Virus record (IMG/VR): IMGVR_UViG_3300017735_000124
Span: 1 to 21,631 of that record
Length of the DNA stretch: 21,631 bases
From: a virus
Reading direction: 5' to 3' (one strand)
Of this stretch, positions 1,909 through 13,908 are shown one piece after another. A program made the translations under genes and the position numbers. Position 1 is the first letter of the stretch. Every line of letters starts with the position of its first letter. The notes beneath the pieces are model-generated. The model was given only the letters and a program-made list of their open reading frames with translations, searched no databases and was not told the origin of the DNA.

Positions 1909-2120
1909 AGATCCTTGCCCCTCGGTCTAGAGTTTACCCAGTCCTCGATCTCTGTCAGAACCCAACGGCTTGACGATCTCTTACTGTGCTCATCTCCTAG
2001 AACTATTGGCTGCGGAAAGTCTGTCTTCTGAGCAACCAACTTATAAATGTAGGACTTGGATACCCCTAGCATCTGAGCTACTTCTCCTACGCGCAGTAGT
2101 CTATTAGAATGGGATGTCAT
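1905..2120 (-). CDS. AlpA-like helix-turn-helix DNA-binding protein
   Basis: This is a 71-aa protein with a MerR/excisionase-like winged HTH. The segment LLRVGEVAQMLGVSKSYIYK (about 8-27) is the helix-turn-helix. It is followed by a wing with FPQPIVLG and a closing strand and helix, RWVLTEIEDWVNSR. This order is typical of AlpA regulators and small excisionase-like proteins. The gene overlaps the end of the primase gene by 17 bp (2104-2120) in another frame and overlaps the helicase start as ATGA, so it is made with the replication proteins. It could regulate transcription or act as an architectural or origin-binding protein. No integrase is seen, so an excisionase role is not supported here. 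Confidence 0.8.
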   Translation of the reverse strand: MTSHSNRLLRVGEVAQMLGVSKSYIYKLVAQKTDFPQPIVLGDEHSKRSSSRWVLTEIEDWVNSRPRGKDL

Positions 2121-3627
2121 TGTTCATCTCCCTTACTGATAATTCTATTTCTTCTTGTTCGAAAGCGGGTATGTGCCAACACCTAAGTGTTGTTCGTTTG
2201 CCGTCTGATTTATGGATAGCTTGAACACCATTGTCGCCACCCATATCACGGATCATTTGAATAAGGTGTCCTCTGTTATCCACCTTAAATCTTCGATGGT
2301 GTAAAAATTCAATTAAACCCTCAAGCTTAAACTTTGTGGTGCCTCCATCAGTCCATGGTTTATTCATCTCCATCTCCTCTGGAACCATCGCTCGGATGTG
2401 GCTCGTACAATAAGCTTTAAGATGCTCCTTAAACTGTCCCTTAACTGTAGCTTCTTCTGGGACTTCAAGAACAGTAGCCCCCTGCATTAACTGGTTAATC
2501 ATCTGCTGCCACTTCTGGGGTTTAACTGTCGGGGGCATGATGTTCATCTGCTCCATGCATGCTCGTTGCCAAAGCACTTGGTTCTGCAATTGCTCTGTTG
2601 AAATCTGTATGCGTGACCCATCAACATCCATGAAGTATACTCTAGGTTCGGATAACATAATAGTCAGTCCGCCAACACTGGGCATGTCAGGGGATTCGTT
2701 CCCTATCCCATGCTTACGACTAGCGCACAGCGTAGGATCACAGTAACTTTTGAAAGGTTCTTCTTTACATTTGTATGCCCAATCCTTCTTGTCCAGGGAT
2801 TTACCTAGGTTGATAACTTCGTGAGAAGGTAACGGCTCAGTACACAGCGTTCGATTAAACTCTTCTAACTTGCTCTTCCAGTTATCAGGTTCAGATAACT
2901 TAGCGTAGATCCCGCATTGATACATGCAAGTATTGCGTGGTGTATCGATAGGACCATCCGCAAACAAATGCTCAAGGCAGGGCGGACCATCGGTGAAATA
3001 CTTACGTTTGCCAGAGAAGCGCAGACCTTCAAGCTCGGACTCTGTTACACGGATCTCTTCGACCGCATCGAGGAACTCGTCTAGTTCTAATGCTTCACAC
3101 TTAGCATTGAATGCGTAGCGTTGTGGCATCTCAGCATTGAAGTAAGGCATGTTGATAAAGTTACCCACATCTCCACGCTCTGCAATTATAGTATCTTGTT
3201 TTGGAAAGATCTCACAGCCACTGAACCCTAGAGCTATAGACATCTCAGTCAGGTAGTCTCGGATGTTAGCTGCAGGAACCCAGTCTTTTAAGAATAGATA
3301 GAGGTGAGCTCCCCCTGATTTGGATCGGCAGTGCATCAACGGAAGCTTCAGCTTCTGGATCTTTGCCTGTAGTTCGTTATGGTTTAAATCGTAGACGTCA
3401 ATGTCCAACGCCGCAAACTTGCATACATTCTCTTCGTTGATTGGTATTGCACCCACGCCCTGCTTACCATCGATATGGTCCTGGACTAAGTCAACAGTCA
3501 GAGGGGATCTTATGATCATGCTCTTGGATTCTGCTTTTCCATTTCGCCCTATGCGTCCGACAGTTGTCGTGCCATGGGCTGATTTTGCTCCGATGAAAAC
3601 GGAGAGTAGTCGTTCTGCCTGTGTCAT
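2104..3627 (-). CDS. Archaeo-eukaryotic-type (AEP) DNA primase with C-terminal DIPF tail
   Basis: This 507-aa protein carries the AEP primase core: the metal-binding DID at 75-77 (FAALDIDVYD), the nucleotide-binding SKSGGAHLYLF at about 102-112 with His108, CEIFPKQ at 138-144, and GNFINMPYF at 155-163. This arrangement matches the TOTE/phage-type AEP domain that makes primers. A Cys cluster (C287, C296, C301, ending in ASRKHGIG) resembles the metal-binding region found after AEP cores in phage primases. A C-terminal region around 440-490 could be a winged helix. The last residues are NNDIPF, which resembles the SSB C-terminal tip. A hairpin terminator separates the gene from the SSB-like gene upstream, so it is probably made at a lower level. 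The RBS is TAGGAG, 8 nt before the ATG. No helicase motifs are present; helicase activity probably comes from the two separate helicase genes. Confidence 0.88.
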   Translation of the reverse strand: MTQAERLLSVFIGAKSAHGTTTVGRIGRNGKAESKSMIIRSPLTVDLVQDHIDGKQGVGAIPINEENVCKFAALDIDVYDLNHNELQAKIQKLKLPLMHCRSKSGGAHLYLFLKDWVPAANIRDYLTEMSIALGFSGCEIFPKQDTIIAERGDVGNFINMPYFNAEMPQRYAFNAKCEALELDEFLDAVEEIRVTESELEGLRFSGKRKYFTDGPPCLEHLFADGPIDTPRNTCMYQCGIYAKLSEPDNWKSKLEEFNRTLCTEPLPSHEVINLGKSLDKKDWAYKCKEEPFKSYCDPTLCASRKHGIGNESPDMPSVGGLTIMLSEPRVYFMDVDGSRIQISTEQLQNQVLWQRACMEQMNIMPPTVKPQKWQQMINQLMQGATVLEVPEEATVKGQFKEHLKAYCTSHIRAMVPEEMEMNKPWTDGGTTKFKLEGLIEFLHHRRFKVDNRGHLIQMIRDMGGDNGVQAIHKSDGKRTTLRCWHIPAFEQEEIELSVREMNNDIPF

Positions 3628-6592: not shown

Positions 6593-6804
6593 TCGAAACG
6601 TTCTGCTCTCGACGCAGGGGTTGGATGAATGACAAGACCGCAACGCAAGCTTTGACAGACCTAGCAGGTTTAGATCCTGGCGTAGCCAATGCGCTCCTCA
6701 CAGAAATGAAACGTCATAACGTTACTCAGATCCGAGGGTACAGTAAAGAACCCGAACGTCTAGCTCGAGGCAAAAAGGGTACAAAGTTTGAGGCAAAAAA
6801 ATAA
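6562..6804 (+). CDS. Small basic hypothetical protein
   Basis: This is an 80-aa protein, rich in Lys and Arg at the C-terminus (ERLARGKKGTKFEAKK). It overlaps the 3' end of the SNF2-like helicase gene by 31 bp in another frame. Purine-rich AGGAGAAG lies upstream of the ATG but somewhat far away (about 13 nt); a later ATG at 6625 is an alternative start. The middle (DKTATQALTDLAGLDPGVANALLTEMKRHNVTQIRGY) looks like a compact helical domain of the kind that could contact DNA. I do not recognise the family. It is the last rightward gene before a convergent terminator, so it is co-transcribed with the helicase. Confidence 0.6.
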   Translation: MAKSKTHDQVIETFCSRRRGWMNDKTATQALTDLAGLDPGVANALLTEMKRHNVTQIRGYSKEPERLARGKKGTKFEAKK

Positions 6805-6884
6805 CCCCGACGTTGCAGTGCGAAACCTAGCCAGTCGGGGTCTAGTTGATGGTCGGTCACACAGGCGGAACCAACCGAGCAATT
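6794..6884 (-). ncRNA. Candidate phage small RNA (about 90 nt)
   Basis: A good promoter (-10 TATAAT at 6895-6890) lies exactly upstream of an otherwise non-coding stretch that ends in the terminator at 6795-6840. A transcript starting near 6884 would be about 90 nt long with two hairpins: GGTTGGT pairing with ACCGACC (one G-U pair, 12-nt loop) and then the terminator stem. No open frame with an RBS is present. The short transcript could instead just be the 3' UTR of the RHH gene; RNA data would decide. Confidence 0.3.
6795..6840 (-). terminator. Rho-independent terminator closing the leftward early operon
   Basis: Read leftward, CCCCGAC (6840-6834) pairs with GTCGGGG (6811-6805) over 7 bp with a long 22-nt loop, followed by TTATTTTTTT (6804-6795). 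The T-run is on the leftward transcript only; the rightward side (TCTAGTTGATGG) is poor. It therefore ends transcription coming from the RHH gene and prevents read-through into the SNF2-like helicase gene. Confidence 0.75.
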
Positions 6885-6889
6885 TGTGT

Positions 6890-6918
6890 ATTATATCATA
6901 CAGTATTGGTTTCGGCAA
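6890..6918 (-). promoter_or_regulatory. Sigma70-like promoter with extended -10
   Basis: Read leftward, TTGCCG (6918-6913), a 17-nt spacer and TATAAT (6895-6890), with TGA directly before the -10 giving the extended TGnTATAAT form. The -10 is perfect and the -35 matches 4 of 6. It overlaps the end and stop codon of the RHH gene, so the only thing it could transcribe is the short region up to the terminator at 6795-6840. Confidence 0.45.
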
Positions 6919-7066
6919 CTGCTCTGCGGATTAATACCGATAGCTGCCGAGCCATGGATCTCTGTTCTTTGTTCGCCAGTTCGCGAAGACTATCGTGATC
7001 CTTTTTAAGTAAGCCAACGTTCTGAAACTGTTGCTTATCTTCTTCTTTCATTTTCTTTCTAGCCAT
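6896..7066 (-). CDS. Ribbon-helix-helix (CopG/Arc-like) small DNA-binding protein
   Basis: A 56-aa frame runs leftward from an ATG at 7066-7064 to TGA at 6898-6896. A perfect Shine-Dalgarno AGGAGGT lies just before the ATG. The sequence has a basic N-terminus MARKKMKEEDKQQFQ. It continues with a short strand-like NVGLLKK, a helix DHDSLRELANKE, the turn RSMARQ and a second helix LSVLIRRAVAE. That strand-helix-turn-helix layout, with the typical 'LxxLAxxExRSxAxxLxxLIxxAV' pattern, is the RHH fold of Arc/CopG regulators. Such proteins dimerise and bind repeated operator sites, so it is a candidate repressor of an early phage operator. It has its own promoter (7090-7118) and sits at the end of the leftward early operon. 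It is easy to miss because of its length. Confidence 0.8.
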   Translation of the reverse strand: MARKKMKEEDKQQFQNVGLLKKDHDSLRELANKEQRSMARQLSVLIRRAVAETNTV

Positions 7067-7089
7067 AATGACCTCCTATTTGTTGGTAG

Positions 7090-7118
7090 CTTATACGATA
7101 TATGGTTGTAGGTTGCAA
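7090..7118 (-). promoter_or_regulatory. Sigma70-like promoter of the RHH gene
   Basis: Read leftward: TTGCAA (7118-7113), a 17-nt spacer and TATAAG (7095-7090). The -35 matches 4 of 6 and the -10 matches 5 of 6. It lies in the 55-bp gap after the stop of the upstream gene and about 24 nt before the RHH start codon, so the regulator could be expressed separately from the rest of the operon. Confidence 0.5.
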
Positions 7119-7121
7119 GTG

Positions 7122-7403
7122 CTACTCTTGATCAGGGTTTAAGTCCTCGAATTGACCATCGTCTTTCATGGTACTTGTTACTCGGATCGCTCTCCAAGGA
7201 GTTTCGTGCCGCTTGTCCTCGTAGTTTGGGATGCAATGTGCGACGACGATATCTCCCAGGTCCAGGTTTAATTTGTTAACCAAGCGATTGTTAAAGAACA
7301 CGACGTCGCCCTGTTCGTTCTGACCGAAGGCACTGTTCGTGTAAGTTAGATCCTCAATGATTACATTGAAAGGTGTAGTATTGAATGCATTATTTAAAGT
7401 CAT
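7122..7403 (-). CDS. Hypothetical phage protein with OB/cold-shock-like segment
   Basis: This is a 93-aa protein. The segment GDVVFFNNRLVNKLNLDLGD followed by IVVAHCIPNYEDKR and TPWRAIRV (about 32-75) reads as alternating beta strands. It follows the pattern 'G-x-V-F-x-x-x-x-L-x-x-x-L-x-L-x-x-G-D', seen in cold-shock-like OB-fold proteins of phages. The C-terminus is acidic (DDGQFEDLNPDQE). The RBS AGGAAAA is well placed before the ATG. An ssRNA/ssDNA-binding role is plausible, but the fold call is only pattern-based. It lies between an HTH protein and the RHH protein in the leftward early operon. Confidence 0.65.
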   Translation of the reverse strand: MTLNNAFNTTPFNVIIEDLTYTNSAFGQNEQGDVVFFNNRLVNKLNLDLGDIVVAHCIPNYEDKRHETPWRAIRVTSTMKDDGQFEDLNPDQE

Positions 7404-7422
7404 ATTTGTTTTCCTATTTAAT

Positions 7423-7779
7423 TTAAGTTCGCGGCAAGCCGTAGCGTTTCTTGATGTAGCTCACAGAGTGGCGCGAGGTTCTAAGTTCTTCCGACATCTC
7501 TTGCAATGTCATGTCTGTTGTCAGCATCATGTTGTTGATTAGTGTTGCGGACTTAGACAAGGGGCGATCTTTCGGATCGATGCTCTCCAACGTGGTTGAA
7601 GGCACTTGATCTGTGCGAATGCGTGTACTTGTTCCGCGCTTCGCATTTTCCAACGCCCTTCGTGTCATGGGCGATGGTCCCCGAGCCAGAGGGTTTTCTT
7701 TGCGGTCGATTTTATTCTGCCTGTCCCAAGCTTCTTTGTATATGTCTTGGTACTTCTCGATTTTTTCCTGCTCGTTCAT
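7423..7779 (-). CDS. Putative HTH DNA-binding protein
   Basis: This is a 118-aa protein. The first two thirds are charged and basic (RKENPLARGPSPMTRRALENAKRG). The C-terminal part, DMTLQEMSEELRTSRHSVSYIKKRYGL (about 88-114), has the spacing of a helix-turn-helix: a helix TLQEMSEEL, the turn RTS, and a recognition helix RHSVSYIKKR. It therefore probably binds DNA and may regulate phage or host genes. The start codon overlaps the stop of the upstream gene as TGATG, which implies translational coupling. I do not recognise a named family. Confidence 0.65.
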   Translation of the reverse strand: MNEQEKIEKYQDIYKEAWDRQNKIDRKENPLARGPSPMTRRALENAKRGTSTRIRTDQVPSTTLESIDPKDRPLSKSATLINNMMLTTDMTLQEMSEELRTSRHSVSYIKKRYGLPRT

Positions 7780-8165
7780 CAGTGATGTGTCCTTTCTTCG
7801 GGTTTACTTACCATGCGTTCGGTAATCTCCTGGAGCAAGCAAAATAGTCCTGCCATTTCTTCGGGTGAGTTGGCATAGACCGAGCCGATTGTCATTAAGG
7901 CAGCGGGCACTTCCTCGTCGGTTAGATTGTCGGGCAGAACCCGACAGATATTATTTAGCAATGCAGATTTTTCTTTGTCCGCGTGAGTATCCACTCGAGC
8001 CTGGTCTTTAAACCTACTGTCGATAACCAAAGTAATCGTCCAATCCATGACGTCGTCTCGAGCATCGAGGTCAGCCTTCCAAGACTGAACCTCCTTCCAT
8101 GTCTCAAACTTCCTGACCATATCGTGCGGCAGAGATCGTTCCCTGCTCCATGTTACTTGGTACAT
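7779..8165 (-). CDS. Hypothetical early phage protein
   Basis: This is a 128-aa protein. The N-terminal half looks alpha/beta (MYQVTWSRERSLPHDMVRKF, then DWTITLVIDSRFK). The C-terminal half is helical and acidic, with PDNLTDEEVPAALMTIGSVY. No motif or family is recognisable. Its start overlaps the end of the upstream gene by 13 bp in another frame, and its stop overlaps the next ATG (TGATG). This dense packing of coupled short genes is typical of phage early regions. No membrane segment or signal peptide is visible. Confidence 0.6.
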   Translation of the reverse strand: MYQVTWSRERSLPHDMVRKFETWKEVQSWKADLDARDDVMDWTITLVIDSRFKDQARVDTHADKEKSALLNNICRVLPDNLTDEEVPAALMTIGSVYANSPEEMAGLFCLLQEITERMVSKPEERTHH

Positions 8166-10320: not shown

Positions 10321-10523
10321 TACACATCCTCCTGTGAAAGAAAGGCATAGGCAGGGTTCTTGAATTCTTCCTCAAACAACCCAATCTCATCAAAGCCGTA
10401 CAGAACTAATGCGTCCTCGGTACTCTGTCCATATTCATAAACAACCAAGTCATATCCAACAGGGATACCACCCTCGAAGTCCTCATGAATTGGCATTACT
10501 TTAGGTAAGGTAGTCTGGTTCAT
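10320..10523 (-). CDS. Small acidic hypothetical protein
   Basis: This is a 67-aa protein (MNQTTLPKVMPIHEDFEGGI...). It is acidic and aromatic, with VGYDLVVYEYG (about 22-32) as a likely strand and ALVLYGFDEIGLFEEEF as a helix. It touches both neighbours (one-base overlaps at 10320 and 10523), so it is coupled inside the operon. No family or motif is recognised. Confidence 0.55.
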   Translation of the reverse strand: MNQTTLPKVMPIHEDFEGGIPVGYDLVVYEYGQSTEDALVLYGFDEIGLFEEEFKNPAYAFLSQEDV

Positions 10524-11257
10524 TATAAATACTCCTTGTTTAAAATATTAAATAACTCACTGATGTATTCTGCTCTCGCTTCATCAGGTACAGTTTTGTA
10601 ATCTAAGAACTTAGCTTCAACTGGATCTAGATCCTTGTCGAAATATCCCACGACAACTTCCCAATCGTTGATAACCTGACCTTTACGATCACGCTCAAGC
10701 TTAGATCGATCCTTCATATTAACAGTGATCTCGTAGTAGCTTTCGTCCTCCTCGTTAAACCTAATCAACGATGGACACTTCTCACCCTCAACGCCACCAT
10801 GTGTGAAGCCATCTGGCTCCATCTCTGTAATGATTGCATTGTATAGAGACACGTTATCAAAGTCAGGGAACATCGCTTCAAGATGTTTGCCATGTACAAA
10901 GTCGATTACTTCTTGAAAGTTATTAGTGTGCAAACTGTCATGGAAGTTTGTCCAATCTGAATTGTGACCATTGTATCGGTCAGATGTCTGGACAATGAAC
11001 CTCGGTGCCAATGTATGCTCAACCTTGGATAAATCAAAACCCTCAGAGAGATCCTCTCTCCTCCAATACCATTCTAATAAATCGTGATTGGTTCCCATGA
11101 TACGAGCAGAGTTCATGACACGCTCTTGAAGGTGGTGGCTATCCATCCAAATGTGAAAGCCGTTTACTTGGTAGCTCGGTAACTCATCGTTACCATACGT
11201 CGTGCATTCCCAGTGATCTGGTATTTGCAAGTCGTCAGTGTATGTTTCGAAACTCAT
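10523..11257 (-). CDS. Hypothetical protein, first gene of the leftward early operon
   Basis: This is a 244-aa protein, the largest in the early block. It is soluble and acidic, with many aromatic and His residues (GFHIWMDSHHLQERVMN, about 33-49, and YWRREDLSEGFDL). There is a His/Asp-rich centre (NSDWTNFHDSLHTNNFQEV). It has no signal peptide, membrane segment or nucleotide-binding motif. I do not recognise the family. It lies directly behind the divergent control region, so it should be among the earliest and most strongly made leftward products. The RBS CAAGGAG sits 9 nt before the ATG. Proteins in this position often alter host metabolism, but nothing in the sequence shows which target. 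Confidence 0.65.
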   Translation of the reverse strand: MSFETYTDDLQIPDHWECTTYGNDELPSYQVNGFHIWMDSHHLQERVMNSARIMGTNHDLLEWYWRREDLSEGFDLSKVEHTLAPRFIVQTSDRYNGHNSDWTNFHDSLHTNNFQEVIDFVHGKHLEAMFPDFDNVSLYNAIITEMEPDGFTHGGVEGEKCPSLIRFNEEDESYYEITVNMKDRSKLERDRKGQVINDWEVVVGYFDKDLDPVEAKFLDYKTVPDEARAEYISELFNILNKEYL

Positions 11258-11369
11258 TGTGGAAATCTCCTTGTTTCATAGTCTGATTAAATTGGTAGTA
11301 AGTAACAAGTTAAAGGTTCTTGCTCCTTGGGTCAAGGAAATAATTTTAGAGGGGTGTATACAAAGATTA

Positions 11370-11392
11370 CTATATAAGCGTATTTCCCACAG
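11370..11392 (-). promoter_or_regulatory. Left copy of mirrored TATATAG element (promoter or DnaA-box site)
   Basis: Read leftward, this 23-bp element is CTGTGGGAAATACGC followed by TTATATAG. It matches 20 of 23 bases with the element at 11521-11543 on the other strand. The TATATAG end faces the leftward operon, about 110 nt from its first start codon, so it may be a -10 box. The opposite end, read rightward, is TTTCCCACA, one mismatch from the DnaA box TTWTNCACA. There is no good -35 hexamer. Confidence 0.5.
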
Positions 11393-11427
11393 ATTTTATT
11401 TTTTTTTGAAAACTAAATTCATATTGG

Positions 11428-11517
11428 GTGTAAACAATGTAAACAATGTAAACACCTCTATATTTATATACTTCAAACTAGCCCAGAGCTGTTTACCCTT
11501 GTTTACTTTGTTTACAC
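11428..11517. repeat. Opposed GTAAAC iteron arrays (operator or replication origin)
   Basis: Three GTAAAC units at exact 9-bp spacing (GTAAACAAT type) occupy 11428-11455. Three inverted GTTTAC units occupy 11490-11517 (spacings 9 and 10). The outer 19 bases of the two 28-bp arms pair with one mismatch. The 34-bp spacer is AT-rich (TCTATATTTATATACTTC). The array lies between mirrored outward elements and between divergent operons. Such iterated sites bind a regulator or a replication initiator. Confidence 0.8.
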
Positions 11518-11520
11518 TTC

Positions 11521-11543
11521 CTGTGGAAAAAACGCCTATATAG
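11521..11543 (+). promoter_or_regulatory. Right copy of mirrored TATATAG element (promoter or DnaA-box site)
   Basis: CTGTGGAAAAAACGCC followed by TATATAG faces the small terminase gene, 59 nt upstream of its ATG. It starts 3 bp after the right GTTTAC array, so a protein bound there would touch it. Read leftward it contains TTTTCCACA, a full match to the DnaA box TTWTNCACA. If it is a promoter, the -35 is non-standard, which suggests an activator or a phage-specific recognition. Confidence 0.5.
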
Positions 11544-11602: not shown

Positions 11603-12181
11603 ATGAACTCTGCAAAAAAGAAAATAGAAAAAGAACATGGTCGAACTCTGACCAATAGACAAATGACTTTTGCAAGACACATCGTGGAAGGCATATATTC
11701 CAATGCAGAATGTGCCAGAAAAGCAGGTTATTCACATGATGTAGCAAACAACCAAGCTTCAAAACTTTTAAATGGTAGAGATTATCCTCATGTATTGGAG
11801 TACATCCAAGATCTAAGGGATGAGAGGGAACGTAGGTATGGCGTGACAACCATTGGACAACTTGAGAGACTTCATCAACTATCTAGTGGAGCCGAGGAAG
11901 CAGGGCAATTTTCAGCGGCAATCAATGCGGAAAAAATCCGCGCCGCTTTGGGTGGATTAACTGTTGATCGAAGGGAACAAGTGAACACAATTGATCAACT
12001 ATCTCGTGATGAAATTGTTGGAAGGTTGGCAGATTTACAGAAAAAATACCCTCAAGTTTTTGAGATCGAGGGAACATATAAAGATGTAACAGGAGCAAAA
12101 AATAATGAGCGGACAAGAGGCGAACTTTTGGAGCACGATACGAAAAAACCTACCGAAGAAGTGCTTCGCAACGAGGATTGA
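11603..12181 (+). CDS. terS: Terminase small subunit (TerS)
   Basis: The ATG at 11603 with GAGG five nt upstream gives 192 aa; an upstream in-frame TTG at 11576 has no advantage. The N-terminal part is the Terminase_2-type DNA-binding domain: LTNRQMTFARHIVEG (16-30), NAECARKAGYSHDVANNQAS (34-53), then LLNGRDYPHVLEYIQDLRDE. This is the helix-turn-helix that recognises the packaging site. A helical oligomerisation region (QLERLHQLSSGAEEAGQFSA...) and IRAALGG follow, and a hydrophilic tail (about 157-192) ends the protein. TerS docks with the large subunit to start DNA packaging. The large subunit gene is 4.9 kb away, separated by an oppositely oriented block, which is unusual. The gene overlaps the nuclease gene by 77 bp. 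Confidence 0.85.
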   Translation: MNSAKKKIEKEHGRTLTNRQMTFARHIVEGIYSNAECARKAGYSHDVANNQASKLLNGRDYPHVLEYIQDLRDERERRYGVTTIGQLERLHQLSSGAEEAGQFSAAINAEKIRAALGGLTVDRREQVNTIDQLSRDEIVGRLADLQKKYPQVFEIEGTYKDVTGAKNNERTRGELLEHDTKKPTEEVLRNED

Positions 12182-12649: not shown

Positions 12650-13342
12650 CTAGTGTTCTACGATTGCTATTGATTTGCCTAGGCTCGAACCTTTGCATAG
12701 TTTGCAAGCTGTACATTGGACGCGACGACCTGCCTCTTTTGATGCAGGACAAAGCGCCTCGTTTGCTTTGTCTAATTGCCCTAGATCCGCGATTACTCGA
12801 AAGGTTCGACGACCTTGTGCCCAGTGGTCGAGTGCCTCTTGCTTATTGTCCGCGCTTTGCATCGCAATATCTGGACGCCAACCGCTTTGGTGGCTGTATG
12901 CCGTGAAAGTGGACGCTTCTTTTAGTAGTTGTTCCCATACAAAAGAGGGTACCGCGGCCGGATCTCCATAAGTTCCCACTCTAACGAACCGATTACGGCC
13001 GAGCGTGTTCCTATTCTTTTGAGTATTGGCAATTGGATATATACCTTTGATAAAAGATTTATAAACAATCAAAACGCCTTGCCCTAGGTTAACATAGCAA
13101 CGCCGACCTTTTGCAATCTTGCGCTCTGGATCTGTTGTTGTTTCACCTCGCATTGTGCAATCGCCACAGATAGAAAAATCCGCGCCTGTCTTGCTTGCTT
13201 CTCTCGGATCTATATCCGAGCGCAAGATATAAGTTTGTACGACCTTGCCTGTCTTGGTGTTTCGGTCGGAATATGTCGCAATAACGACGATAGGTTTACC
13301 ATCCAATAGGCTCTTGCCATTGTATATGATCCCGTTTTTCAT
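12650..13342 (-). CDS. Cys-rich phage protein, DUF7227-like
   Basis: This is a 230-aa protein. Cys and aromatic landmarks are FSICGDCTMRG (about 56-66), RRCYVNLGQG (about 80-89), FTAYSHQSGWRPD near the middle, then LCPASKEAGRR and VQCTACKLCKG near the C-terminus. This order matches the phage family I know as DUF7227, in which the paired Cys motifs probably bind metal; I know of no proven function. An extended -10 promoter lies 38 nt upstream and a strong terminator follows, so it is a self-contained transcription unit. The RBS is AAGGAA. Arrays of TTGCGCC flank it on both sides, which makes it look like an inserted cassette. The family call is from memory of the pattern. Confidence 0.7.
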   Translation of the reverse strand: MKNGIIYNGKSLLDGKPIVVIATYSDRNTKTGKVVQTYILRSDIDPREASKTGADFSICGDCTMRGETTTDPERKIAKGRRCYVNLGQGVLIVYKSFIKGIYPIANTQKNRNTLGRNRFVRVGTYGDPAAVPSFVWEQLLKEASTFTAYSHQSGWRPDIAMQSADNKQEALDHWAQGRRTFRVIADLGQLDKANEALCPASKEAGRRVQCTACKLCKGSSLGKSIAIVEH

Positions 13343-13427: not shown

Positions 13428-13560
13428 TTGTATGTCTTGCGCCTTGTTCTTAAACTTTGCGCCTTGCTTGTATGTCTTGCGCCTTGCGCCTTGCGCCTTG
13501 ATTGTTATTTTTTATTTTTTTATTTGTTATATCGTGTGGCCTTGCGCCTTGCGCCCTTGT
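13428..13560 (+). repeat. Second TTGCGCC heptamer array
   Basis: Seven TTGCGCC copies lie here, including three perfect tandem heptamers at about 13477-13497 and a pair at about 13542-13555. A 19-bp unit beginning TTGTATGTCTTGCGCC occurs twice (13428-13446 and 13468-13486). Between the groups is a T-rich tract. The heptamer has the same orientation as in the array at 12463-12566 on the other side of the Cys-rich gene. The region 13343-13635 contains no gene. Confidence 0.8.
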
Positions 13561-13593
13561 CCTTATTTCGTCTTGTTATTGTTTTGGTAGCGC

Positions 13594-13621
13594 AAAAGAA
13601 AACCAGGTCCAAGGACCTGGT
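13594..13621 (-). terminator. Rho-independent terminator
   Basis: Read leftward, ACCAGGTCC (13621-13613) and GGACCTGGT (13610-13602) form an 8-9 bp stem with a very small loop, followed by TTTCTTTT (13601-13594). It ends the gene at 13636-13908. Confidence 0.75.
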
Positions 13622-13635
13622 CTATTGGTTTTATA

Positions 13636-13908
13636 TTATACGTTGTATTCGTCGCGCCACTGTGGATCAGCATCCAAGAGCTTTCCAAATTGAGTGATTT
13701 CCCTGGCGTAGGTATCACCCATTTCATATTGACCATCATGCATCATGGGTGATGTGGCCGCCACAAACCATCTCGCATATGGGTCTTGCATTTCTGCAGC
13801 CGAATGTTTGTAGGTCTTTAAAACTTTCCACACCCATCCCTGATCGTTCACATAGGTTGCGTATGGTGTATCAGCATCACGAGTTTTTCCAAAAGATGTT
13901 CTAGGCAT
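13636..13908 (-). CDS. Conserved hypothetical phage protein
   Basis: This is a 90-aa protein. The blocks YATYVNDQGWVWKVLKTYKH (about 16-35), DPYARWFVAATSPMM (about 42-56) and GQYEMGDTYAREI (about 59-71) form a pattern I have seen in other phage and bacterial small proteins, always without a function. It is rich in Trp and Tyr, is soluble and lacks a signal peptide. The RBS AAGGAGAA is 5 nt before the ATG. A hairpin lies between it and the upstream gene, and a terminator follows, so it may be an independent transcription unit. Confidence 0.65.
   Translation of the reverse strand: MPRTSFGKTRDADTPYATYVNDQGWVWKVLKTYKHSAAEMQDPYARWFVAATSPMMHDGQYEMGDTYAREITQFGKLLDADPQWRDEYNV

Follow-up and report, generated by a model that had tools for sequence, protein, structure and literature searches.

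An iteron array between divergent units of an uncultivated phage changes in step with the wing of the phage primase

Introduction

What does a phage gain from two mirrored, outward-facing elements that enclose two inverted triplets of a six-base repeat? The question is raised by positions 11370-11543 of a 21.6-kb IMG/VR phage contig that carries part of a genome; the whole contig, 21,631 nucleotides, is referred to here as the window. A sequence-only reading of the locus had taken it for either a two-way switch or an iteron origin. Support for the origin half of that proposal comes from co-variation between the repeats and the primase winged-helix domain. As for the switch half, the placement, conserved core and pairing of the outward elements make it plausible. 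Metagenomic contigs supply the evidence throughout; the phage collection yielded no DNA match to the window and no close cultured relative.

Results

The locus and its iterons

An intergenic region of 345 bp around 11370-11543 separates a leftward from a rightward unit. The first gene of the leftward unit (10523..11257, minus strand) is followed further on by the primase gene, a UvrD-like helicase gene and others, and in close relatives the unit also encodes helicases and a PolA-type polymerase. The rightward unit opens with the small terminase (TerS) gene (11603..12181, plus strand; phrog_51, 6e-13). The GC minimum of the window, 0.367, falls in this large divergent intergenic region, which holds the array. 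GC skew tracks the direction of transcription and so gives no independent origin signal. Some relatives carry a C5 DNA methyltransferase gene after that for the polymerase (L174:7012-8319 in G001; 6710-7885 in G007); it is missing from others, such as G002.

Three copies of GTAAAC lie on the plus strand (11430..11435, 11439..11444 and 11448..11453) and three on the minus strand (11491..11496, 11501..11506 and 11510..11515). The two inverted triplets are thus placed between the elements as first described, and they are well above chance: six copies of a hexamer within 86 bp were reached in 0 of 1000 shuffles, the maximum being four. The spacing had been called helical-turn-like, but it measures 9/9 bp in the left triplet and 10/9 bp in the right, not the 10.5 bp of a turn. 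Two outer degenerate copies, GTATAC (11356..11361) and GTAATC (11365..11370), both on the minus strand and absent from the earlier description, lie 9 bp apart directly downstream of the left TATATA, and GTAATC overlaps the site at which a leftward start is expected. Both of these positions match the phage's own iteron core exactly in L082 and L086, and L087 has an exact core copy at the position of 11365..11370.

A T-tract and AT-rich stretch at 11393..11427, with the lowest GC of the window and a mean pairwise difference of 0.06 in the window clade, is a candidate unwinding region; the AT-rich centre between the inverted triplets (11457..11488) has a mean pairwise difference of 0.09. The locus therefore has two features of an iteron origin, regular direct repeats (3+3 GTAAAC) and an adjoining AT-rich region, the latter judged purely by composition. 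The third, a cognate initiator on the same replicon, is provided by purely genetic evidence, the co-variation of wing and iteron described below.

The outward elements

The left element, CTGTGGGAAATACGCTTATATAG (11370..11392, minus strand), and the right element, CTGTGGAAAAAACGCCTATATAG (11521..11543, plus strand, 5' of the small terminase gene), are promoter-like mirrors of one another. Their arms of 23 nt are 87% (20/23) complementary, as the sequence-only reading had it, and 60 dinucleotide shuffles of the 345-bp region gave no inverted 23-mer better than 18/23. Each does end in TATATAG, at 11370-11376 (minus) and 11537-11543 (plus). Both elements are kept in relatives, with a consensus near CTGTGGAAAAAnnnCCTATATAG, a conserved CTATAT(A)G core and a conserved -10-like TATATA. 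In most close relatives the right element lies at -66 relative to the TerS ATG, and its mean pairwise difference in the window clade is 0.06. Of five relative genomes scanned, four have exactly two strong copies and the fifth (G004) has no clear copy.

From their sequence and position, the outward elements most likely act as a divergent promoter pair, one for each unit. They were rejected as sigma-70 promoters: neither gave a consensus match to -10 and -35 hexamers 16-18 bp apart, and their -35 part is unlike that of sigma-70. Promoters for a T7-like RNA polymerase gained no support: a PF00940 search for a single-subunit polymerase matched in 0 of 14 relatives, although its control also matched nowhere and is uninformative. 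A 1404-aa protein gave no PHROG match.

Each element had also been credited with a DnaA box. One exact match, TTTTCCACA, does lie at 11522-11530 (minus), but exact TTWTNCACA occurs twice in the window against 2.2 expected, and an exact box is present in just 1/36 right and 1/37 left distinct elements from relatives. The boxes are thus no more than chance would give, and this lack of conservation removes host DnaA both as a binder of the locus and as the reader of the iterons. A conserved DnaA box is found in many iteron plasmid origins, whereas phage origins do not require one. It is accordingly very improbable that the locus is an element driven by host DnaA or sigma-70 in which the iterons are incidental. 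One exact and one near box, and the resemblance of TATATAG to a -10, are in its favour, but it is largely refuted by the unconserved boxes, by the lack of a sigma-70 -35 at standard spacing and by iteron cores that co-vary with a phage protein.

Iteron cores in related phages

Relatives gathered through small-terminase homologues gave more than 80 loci with an upstream region, and the whole region is alignable where TerS is 92-100% identical to that of the window. In these close relatives the iterons are unchanged in number (six), in placement and spacing, and at the fixed bases (GT....A). The right element and the TerS leader are essentially unchanged while the six cores are replaced together. 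The core is GTAAAC in the window, L089 and L090, GTCAAC in L082, GTTCTC in L083 and L084, GTCCTC in L086, and GTACTC in L088 and in L004/L091, where one left copy reads GGCCTC. More distant relatives add GTAATC, GTATCC, GTGACC, GTACCC, GTCACG and TGACTC. Loss of both repeats from close relatives had been named among the findings that would refute the original proposal; what is lost is the GTAAAC core, but another shared core takes its place at all six positions and the outward elements stay.

Within the window clade, iteron bases 3-6 show a mean pairwise difference of 0.43, against 0.02 for the fixed GT..A bases and 0.00 for the 58-bp TerS leader. The short iteron spacers vary (0.39) and are not homogenised within one genome. 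Computation thus establishes both the conservation of the array and the switching of its core. A fixed scaffold with a core that changes in a coordinated manner is the signature of a trans-acting reader changing its specificity.

Two arrays are mixed. That of L010/G007 is a hybrid of five GTTCTC copies and one GTACTC, the odd copy being on the right; that of L087 (upstream of TerS, 693) has GTCATC in its left triplet and GTCCTC in its right. Both may be real intermediates or assembly chimeras, and L087 in particular may be an origin caught mid-switch. The L087 triplets, together with the fact that metagenomic contigs can be chimeric, speak for gene conversion or assembly artefact making the repeats alike with no reader at all. 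Such an explanation is very improbable: only bases 3-6 switch while the fixed GT..A bases stay, homogenisation has not reached the spacers, identical cores turn up in numerous independent contigs, and the wing that changes with them is about 8 kb away.

Several further repeats were seen. The regions upstream in L201/L100 and L093 carry TGACTCA-type cores in which the usually fixed GT is shifted or replaced; the L201 primase has N470 and R477. Phage 023Pt_psg01 (L450, MW574966) has seven TGTGCCA copies in mixed orientation at 13574-13783, near its small terminase gene, possibly an analogous array in a distant phage with a different primase C-terminus. No clear iteron array was found in the cultured phages JeffCo, DSL-LC04 and HTVC027P, whose primases are about 27-38% identical. 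Among wider primase relatives in genome bins, repeats were found at 14/41 loci against 1/41 shuffled controls; several resemble tandem or coding repeats, and these loci are left out of the evidence. Within the window, TTGCGCC occurs seven times, partly in tandem, at 13436-13555, between the phrog_2554 gene and the next gene, and in G001 and G007 the ORFs in the stretch matching 13436-13555 have similar repeats.

Candidate readers

A protein that is identical between phages with different cores is excluded as the reader. The RHH protein (6896-7066), which had been put forward as a binder, is 100% identical in L084, whose core differs. The HTH proteins had likewise been suggested, and the AlpA-like HTH (1905-2120) is identical in the window, G001 and G007, which represent three iteron types. 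TerS is 100% identical across GTAAAC, GTCAAC and GTTCTC, and a 118-aa protein is identical in its HTH part across different iterons. The first leftward gene product (244 aa) is identical over 115 aligned residues in L087 despite the different cores.

The phrog_2554 gene (12650-13342) encodes a Cys-rich product and lies beside the terminase gene in nearly all relatives. Between the window and L082 it diverges together with the iterons while its flanks are identical, the one point in favour of some phage protein other than the primase (phrog_2554, RHH, AlpA-like, HTH-like or TerS) being the reader and of the primase correlation being hitch-hiking. However, the phrog_2554 protein is identical in L106 (GTACTC) and L110 (GTTCTC), the other proteins named are identical across different iterons, at least in the HTH part of the 118-aa protein, and hitch-hiking fails to explain residue-specific, tree-wide co-changes at primase residue 470. 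A different protein reader is therefore improbable, if somewhat less so than the DnaA and gene-conversion explanations.

The primase and its winged-helix domain

The proposed iteron-binding initiator is an AEP (TOTE-like) primase of 507 aa (2104..3627, minus strand; PF22548, 9.5e-15; phrog_21866, 1.3e-94). Its catalytic domain is recognised by profile and by fold, the best PDB match being the CRISPR-associated Prim-Pol 7p9j (E 3.5e-11), with RepB' at 6.4e-4. AlphaFold2 predicts a C-terminal winged-helix domain at residues 395-487 (2167..2445, minus strand), with pLDDT mostly 83-92 per 10-residue block. The model has helices at 395-408, 435-444 and 452-461 and a beta-hairpin, 465-472/478-487. 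This hairpin is the wing (residues 465-487; 2167..2235, minus strand), picked out both by AlphaFold2 and by co-variation. The candidate specificity residues, 470 (2218-2220), 480 (2188-2190) and possibly 468 (2224-2226), all on the minus strand, map to the wing hairpin and not to the third helix. The top solved neighbour of the C-terminal model is TcpK bound to oriT (Z 7.0, rmsd 2.9 over 84 residues), although Z values below 8 can reflect a common fold. Further winged-helix neighbours include SCCmec Cch (5dgk, Z 6.1) and the ORC winged helices (Z about 5).

Co-variation of wing and iteron

Non-synonymous codon changes were counted inside and outside primase residues 455-489. Six near-identical pairs differ in core, and in five of them the changes cluster in the winged-helix domain. 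The clearest case is G008 (GTAAAC) and G002 (TGACTC), with 12 changes inside and 2 outside (P 9e-13) and 12/14 differences at 460-489. The counts are 10 against 6 for G001/G007 (P 1e-8), 7 against 4 for L545/L249 (P 2e-6), 6 against 13 for the window and G001 (P 0.0013), and 6 against 15 for the window and G007 (P 0.0024). The sixth pair, L260/L261 (GTACTC and GTCCTC), shows no clustering, with 1 change inside and 25 outside, the lone wing change being at 480. Four same-core pairs have no primase changes inside 455-489 and 0-14 outside.

A scan by adjusted mutual information of every variable primase column, in 26 contigs holding both primase and array, ranked first residue 470 for base 5 (1.00), 468 for base 4 (0.78) and 480 for base 3 (0.67). 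Residue 470 is Ala or Ser where base 5 is A, Asn where it is T and His where it is C; Tyr goes with a GTCATCC variant. These choices match the usual preferences of side chains for bases on the complementary strand, Asn for A, His for G and Ala for the methyl group of T. As a control for descent, changes were placed on a tree of 32 contigs built from primase residues 1-440, which leaves out the winged helix. Base 5 and the residue-470 class each change nine times, eight of them on the same branches, a value reached in 0 of 5000 shuffles. Residue 470 is first of 371 columns for base 5, and 480 is first for base 3 (5/8), whereas the association of 468 with base 4 fails under this control.

The rule giving base 5 from residue 470 was fixed before new contigs were looked at. 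In a first batch, G025 fits, G036 fits but is not independent, and L353/G015 (N470), where a clean T was expected, gives a mixture of GTCCCC, GTCATC and GTCTCC. In a second batch all nine contigs fit, three of them new combinations. Four of the five independent new cases thus fit, the fifth being mixed. The co-variation of wing and iteron is a plain result of these comparisons.

Discussion

A probable origin read by the primase

The tip of the primase changes in step with the repeat core, so that the primase very probably reads the core directly, as far as sequence comparison can indicate. On the same basis, the six-repeat block is most likely the start point of phage genome copying. The best explanation of the whole, to which we give a probability of about three in four, is an iteron replication origin read by the primase winged helix and flanked by divergent promoters.

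In such an origin, AT-rich DNA would be enclosed by two inverted triplets, six iterons in all (eight with the degenerate copies) of the form YGTnnnnA. They would be bound by the winged helix at the C-terminus of the AEP primase, through a wing code that pairs residue 470 with base 5, residue 480 with base 3 and possibly 468 with base 4. Bound primase would be placed on both sides of the AT-rich centre, where we infer that it could recruit the co-encoded helicases and PolA and prime both strands outward, making replication bidirectional. Each outward element would serve as promoter for one unit, the left for replication and the right for packaging. Outer iteron copies next to the leftward start hint at autoregulation, in which bound primase may dampen its own operon.

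The same outer copies are open to another interpretation, that the array is an operator through which the primase winged helix represses or times two divergent promoters while replication starts elsewhere. The array lies exactly between the divergent units and beside promoter-like elements, the outer copies overlap the left start, and the co-variation fits an operator equally well. However, an origin is an obvious place for a primase to use a sequence-specific domain, AT-rich DNA between inverted triplets is a typical origin layout, and an array detector run on primase-bearing contigs gave this locus as the best array. An operator is thus unlikely, though it is the most serious of the alternatives.

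Possible ‘origin types’

It is possible, though only as a tentative reading, that these phages fall into ‘origin types’, in which wing and array switch together in otherwise near-identical genomes, under diversifying selection and with a readable residue-base code. A switch might come about through a few point changes, or through recombination that exchanges two short segments lying about 8 kb from one another. Selection might come from origin-targeting nucleases, or from satellites and co-infecting relatives that pirate the origin. If true, the code would predict the origin of a phage from its primase, base 5 from residue 470 and base 3 from residue 480. The relatives offer roughly a dozen natural core variants built on one scaffold, with which specificity, co-infection incompatibility and origin piracy become testable using small proteins and short oligonucleotides. 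The array also aids the location of origins in a large group of uncultivated marine phages.

Comparison with known systems

AEP primases of mobile elements, the PolpTN2-like and PrimQH groups, carry a C-terminal winged helix for which origin recognition has been speculated (Kazlauskas et al. 2018, PMC5862659), and a relation to ColE2-type Rep is mentioned in the same work. The window primase, an AEP-TOTE profile match in Pfam and PHROGs, has the same order of AEP domain then winged helix. There, however, the suggestion came without a target site, whereas here a site is identified, co-variation is resolved residue by residue and specificity lies on the wing. The results thus offer direct evolutionary support for the idea that such primases recognise their own origins through the C-terminal winged helix, naming residues and bases and mapping specificity to the wing rather than to the recognition helix. 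ColE2-type Rep is a plasmid primase that itself recognises the replication origin; it is likened here by function, being of a different AEP family, on a plasmid, and without a six-copy inverted iteron array.

Change of iteron and initiator together also has precedents. In geminiviruses, iterons differ between close viruses and the iteron-related domain of Rep changes to match (PMC12548392), but Rep is an HUH nickase of ssDNA plant viruses, unrelated in fold and mode of replication to the window primase. In the PLE satellite, an iteron origin and its cognate RepA are exchanged as a module, and the origin-cutting ICP1 nuclease Odn is a proposed driver of PLE diversification (PMC8263062). PLE differs in being a satellite, in exchanging a whole domain where the window phage changes the wing, and in that its RepA is not described as an AEP primase.

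The initiator helicases SaPI Rep and SCCmec Cch2 place a C-terminal DNA-binding domain on origin iterons (PMC7581432), whereas in the window phage the domain is on the primase. TcpK of pCW3 binds tandem 9-nt oriT repeats by a winged helix whose beta-wing sits in the major groove (PMC6137059, PDB 5vfx), which fits the 9-bp iteron period and the wing-borne specificity seen here. It is, however, a conjugation accessory protein without a primase, and the likeness, at Z 7.0, is maybe that of a common fold.

Lambda O is a phage-encoded initiator acting on phage iterons; its array lies inside the O gene and it recruits host DnaB. It is not a primase, whereas the candidate initiator of the window phage is. 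The literature searched, with most subscription papers outside its scope, yielded no description of a tailed-phage iteron array with specificity on a primase wing. By its sequence, the window phage appears to combine in a tailed phage the recognition of an origin by an AEP winged helix with the joint change of iteron and initiator.
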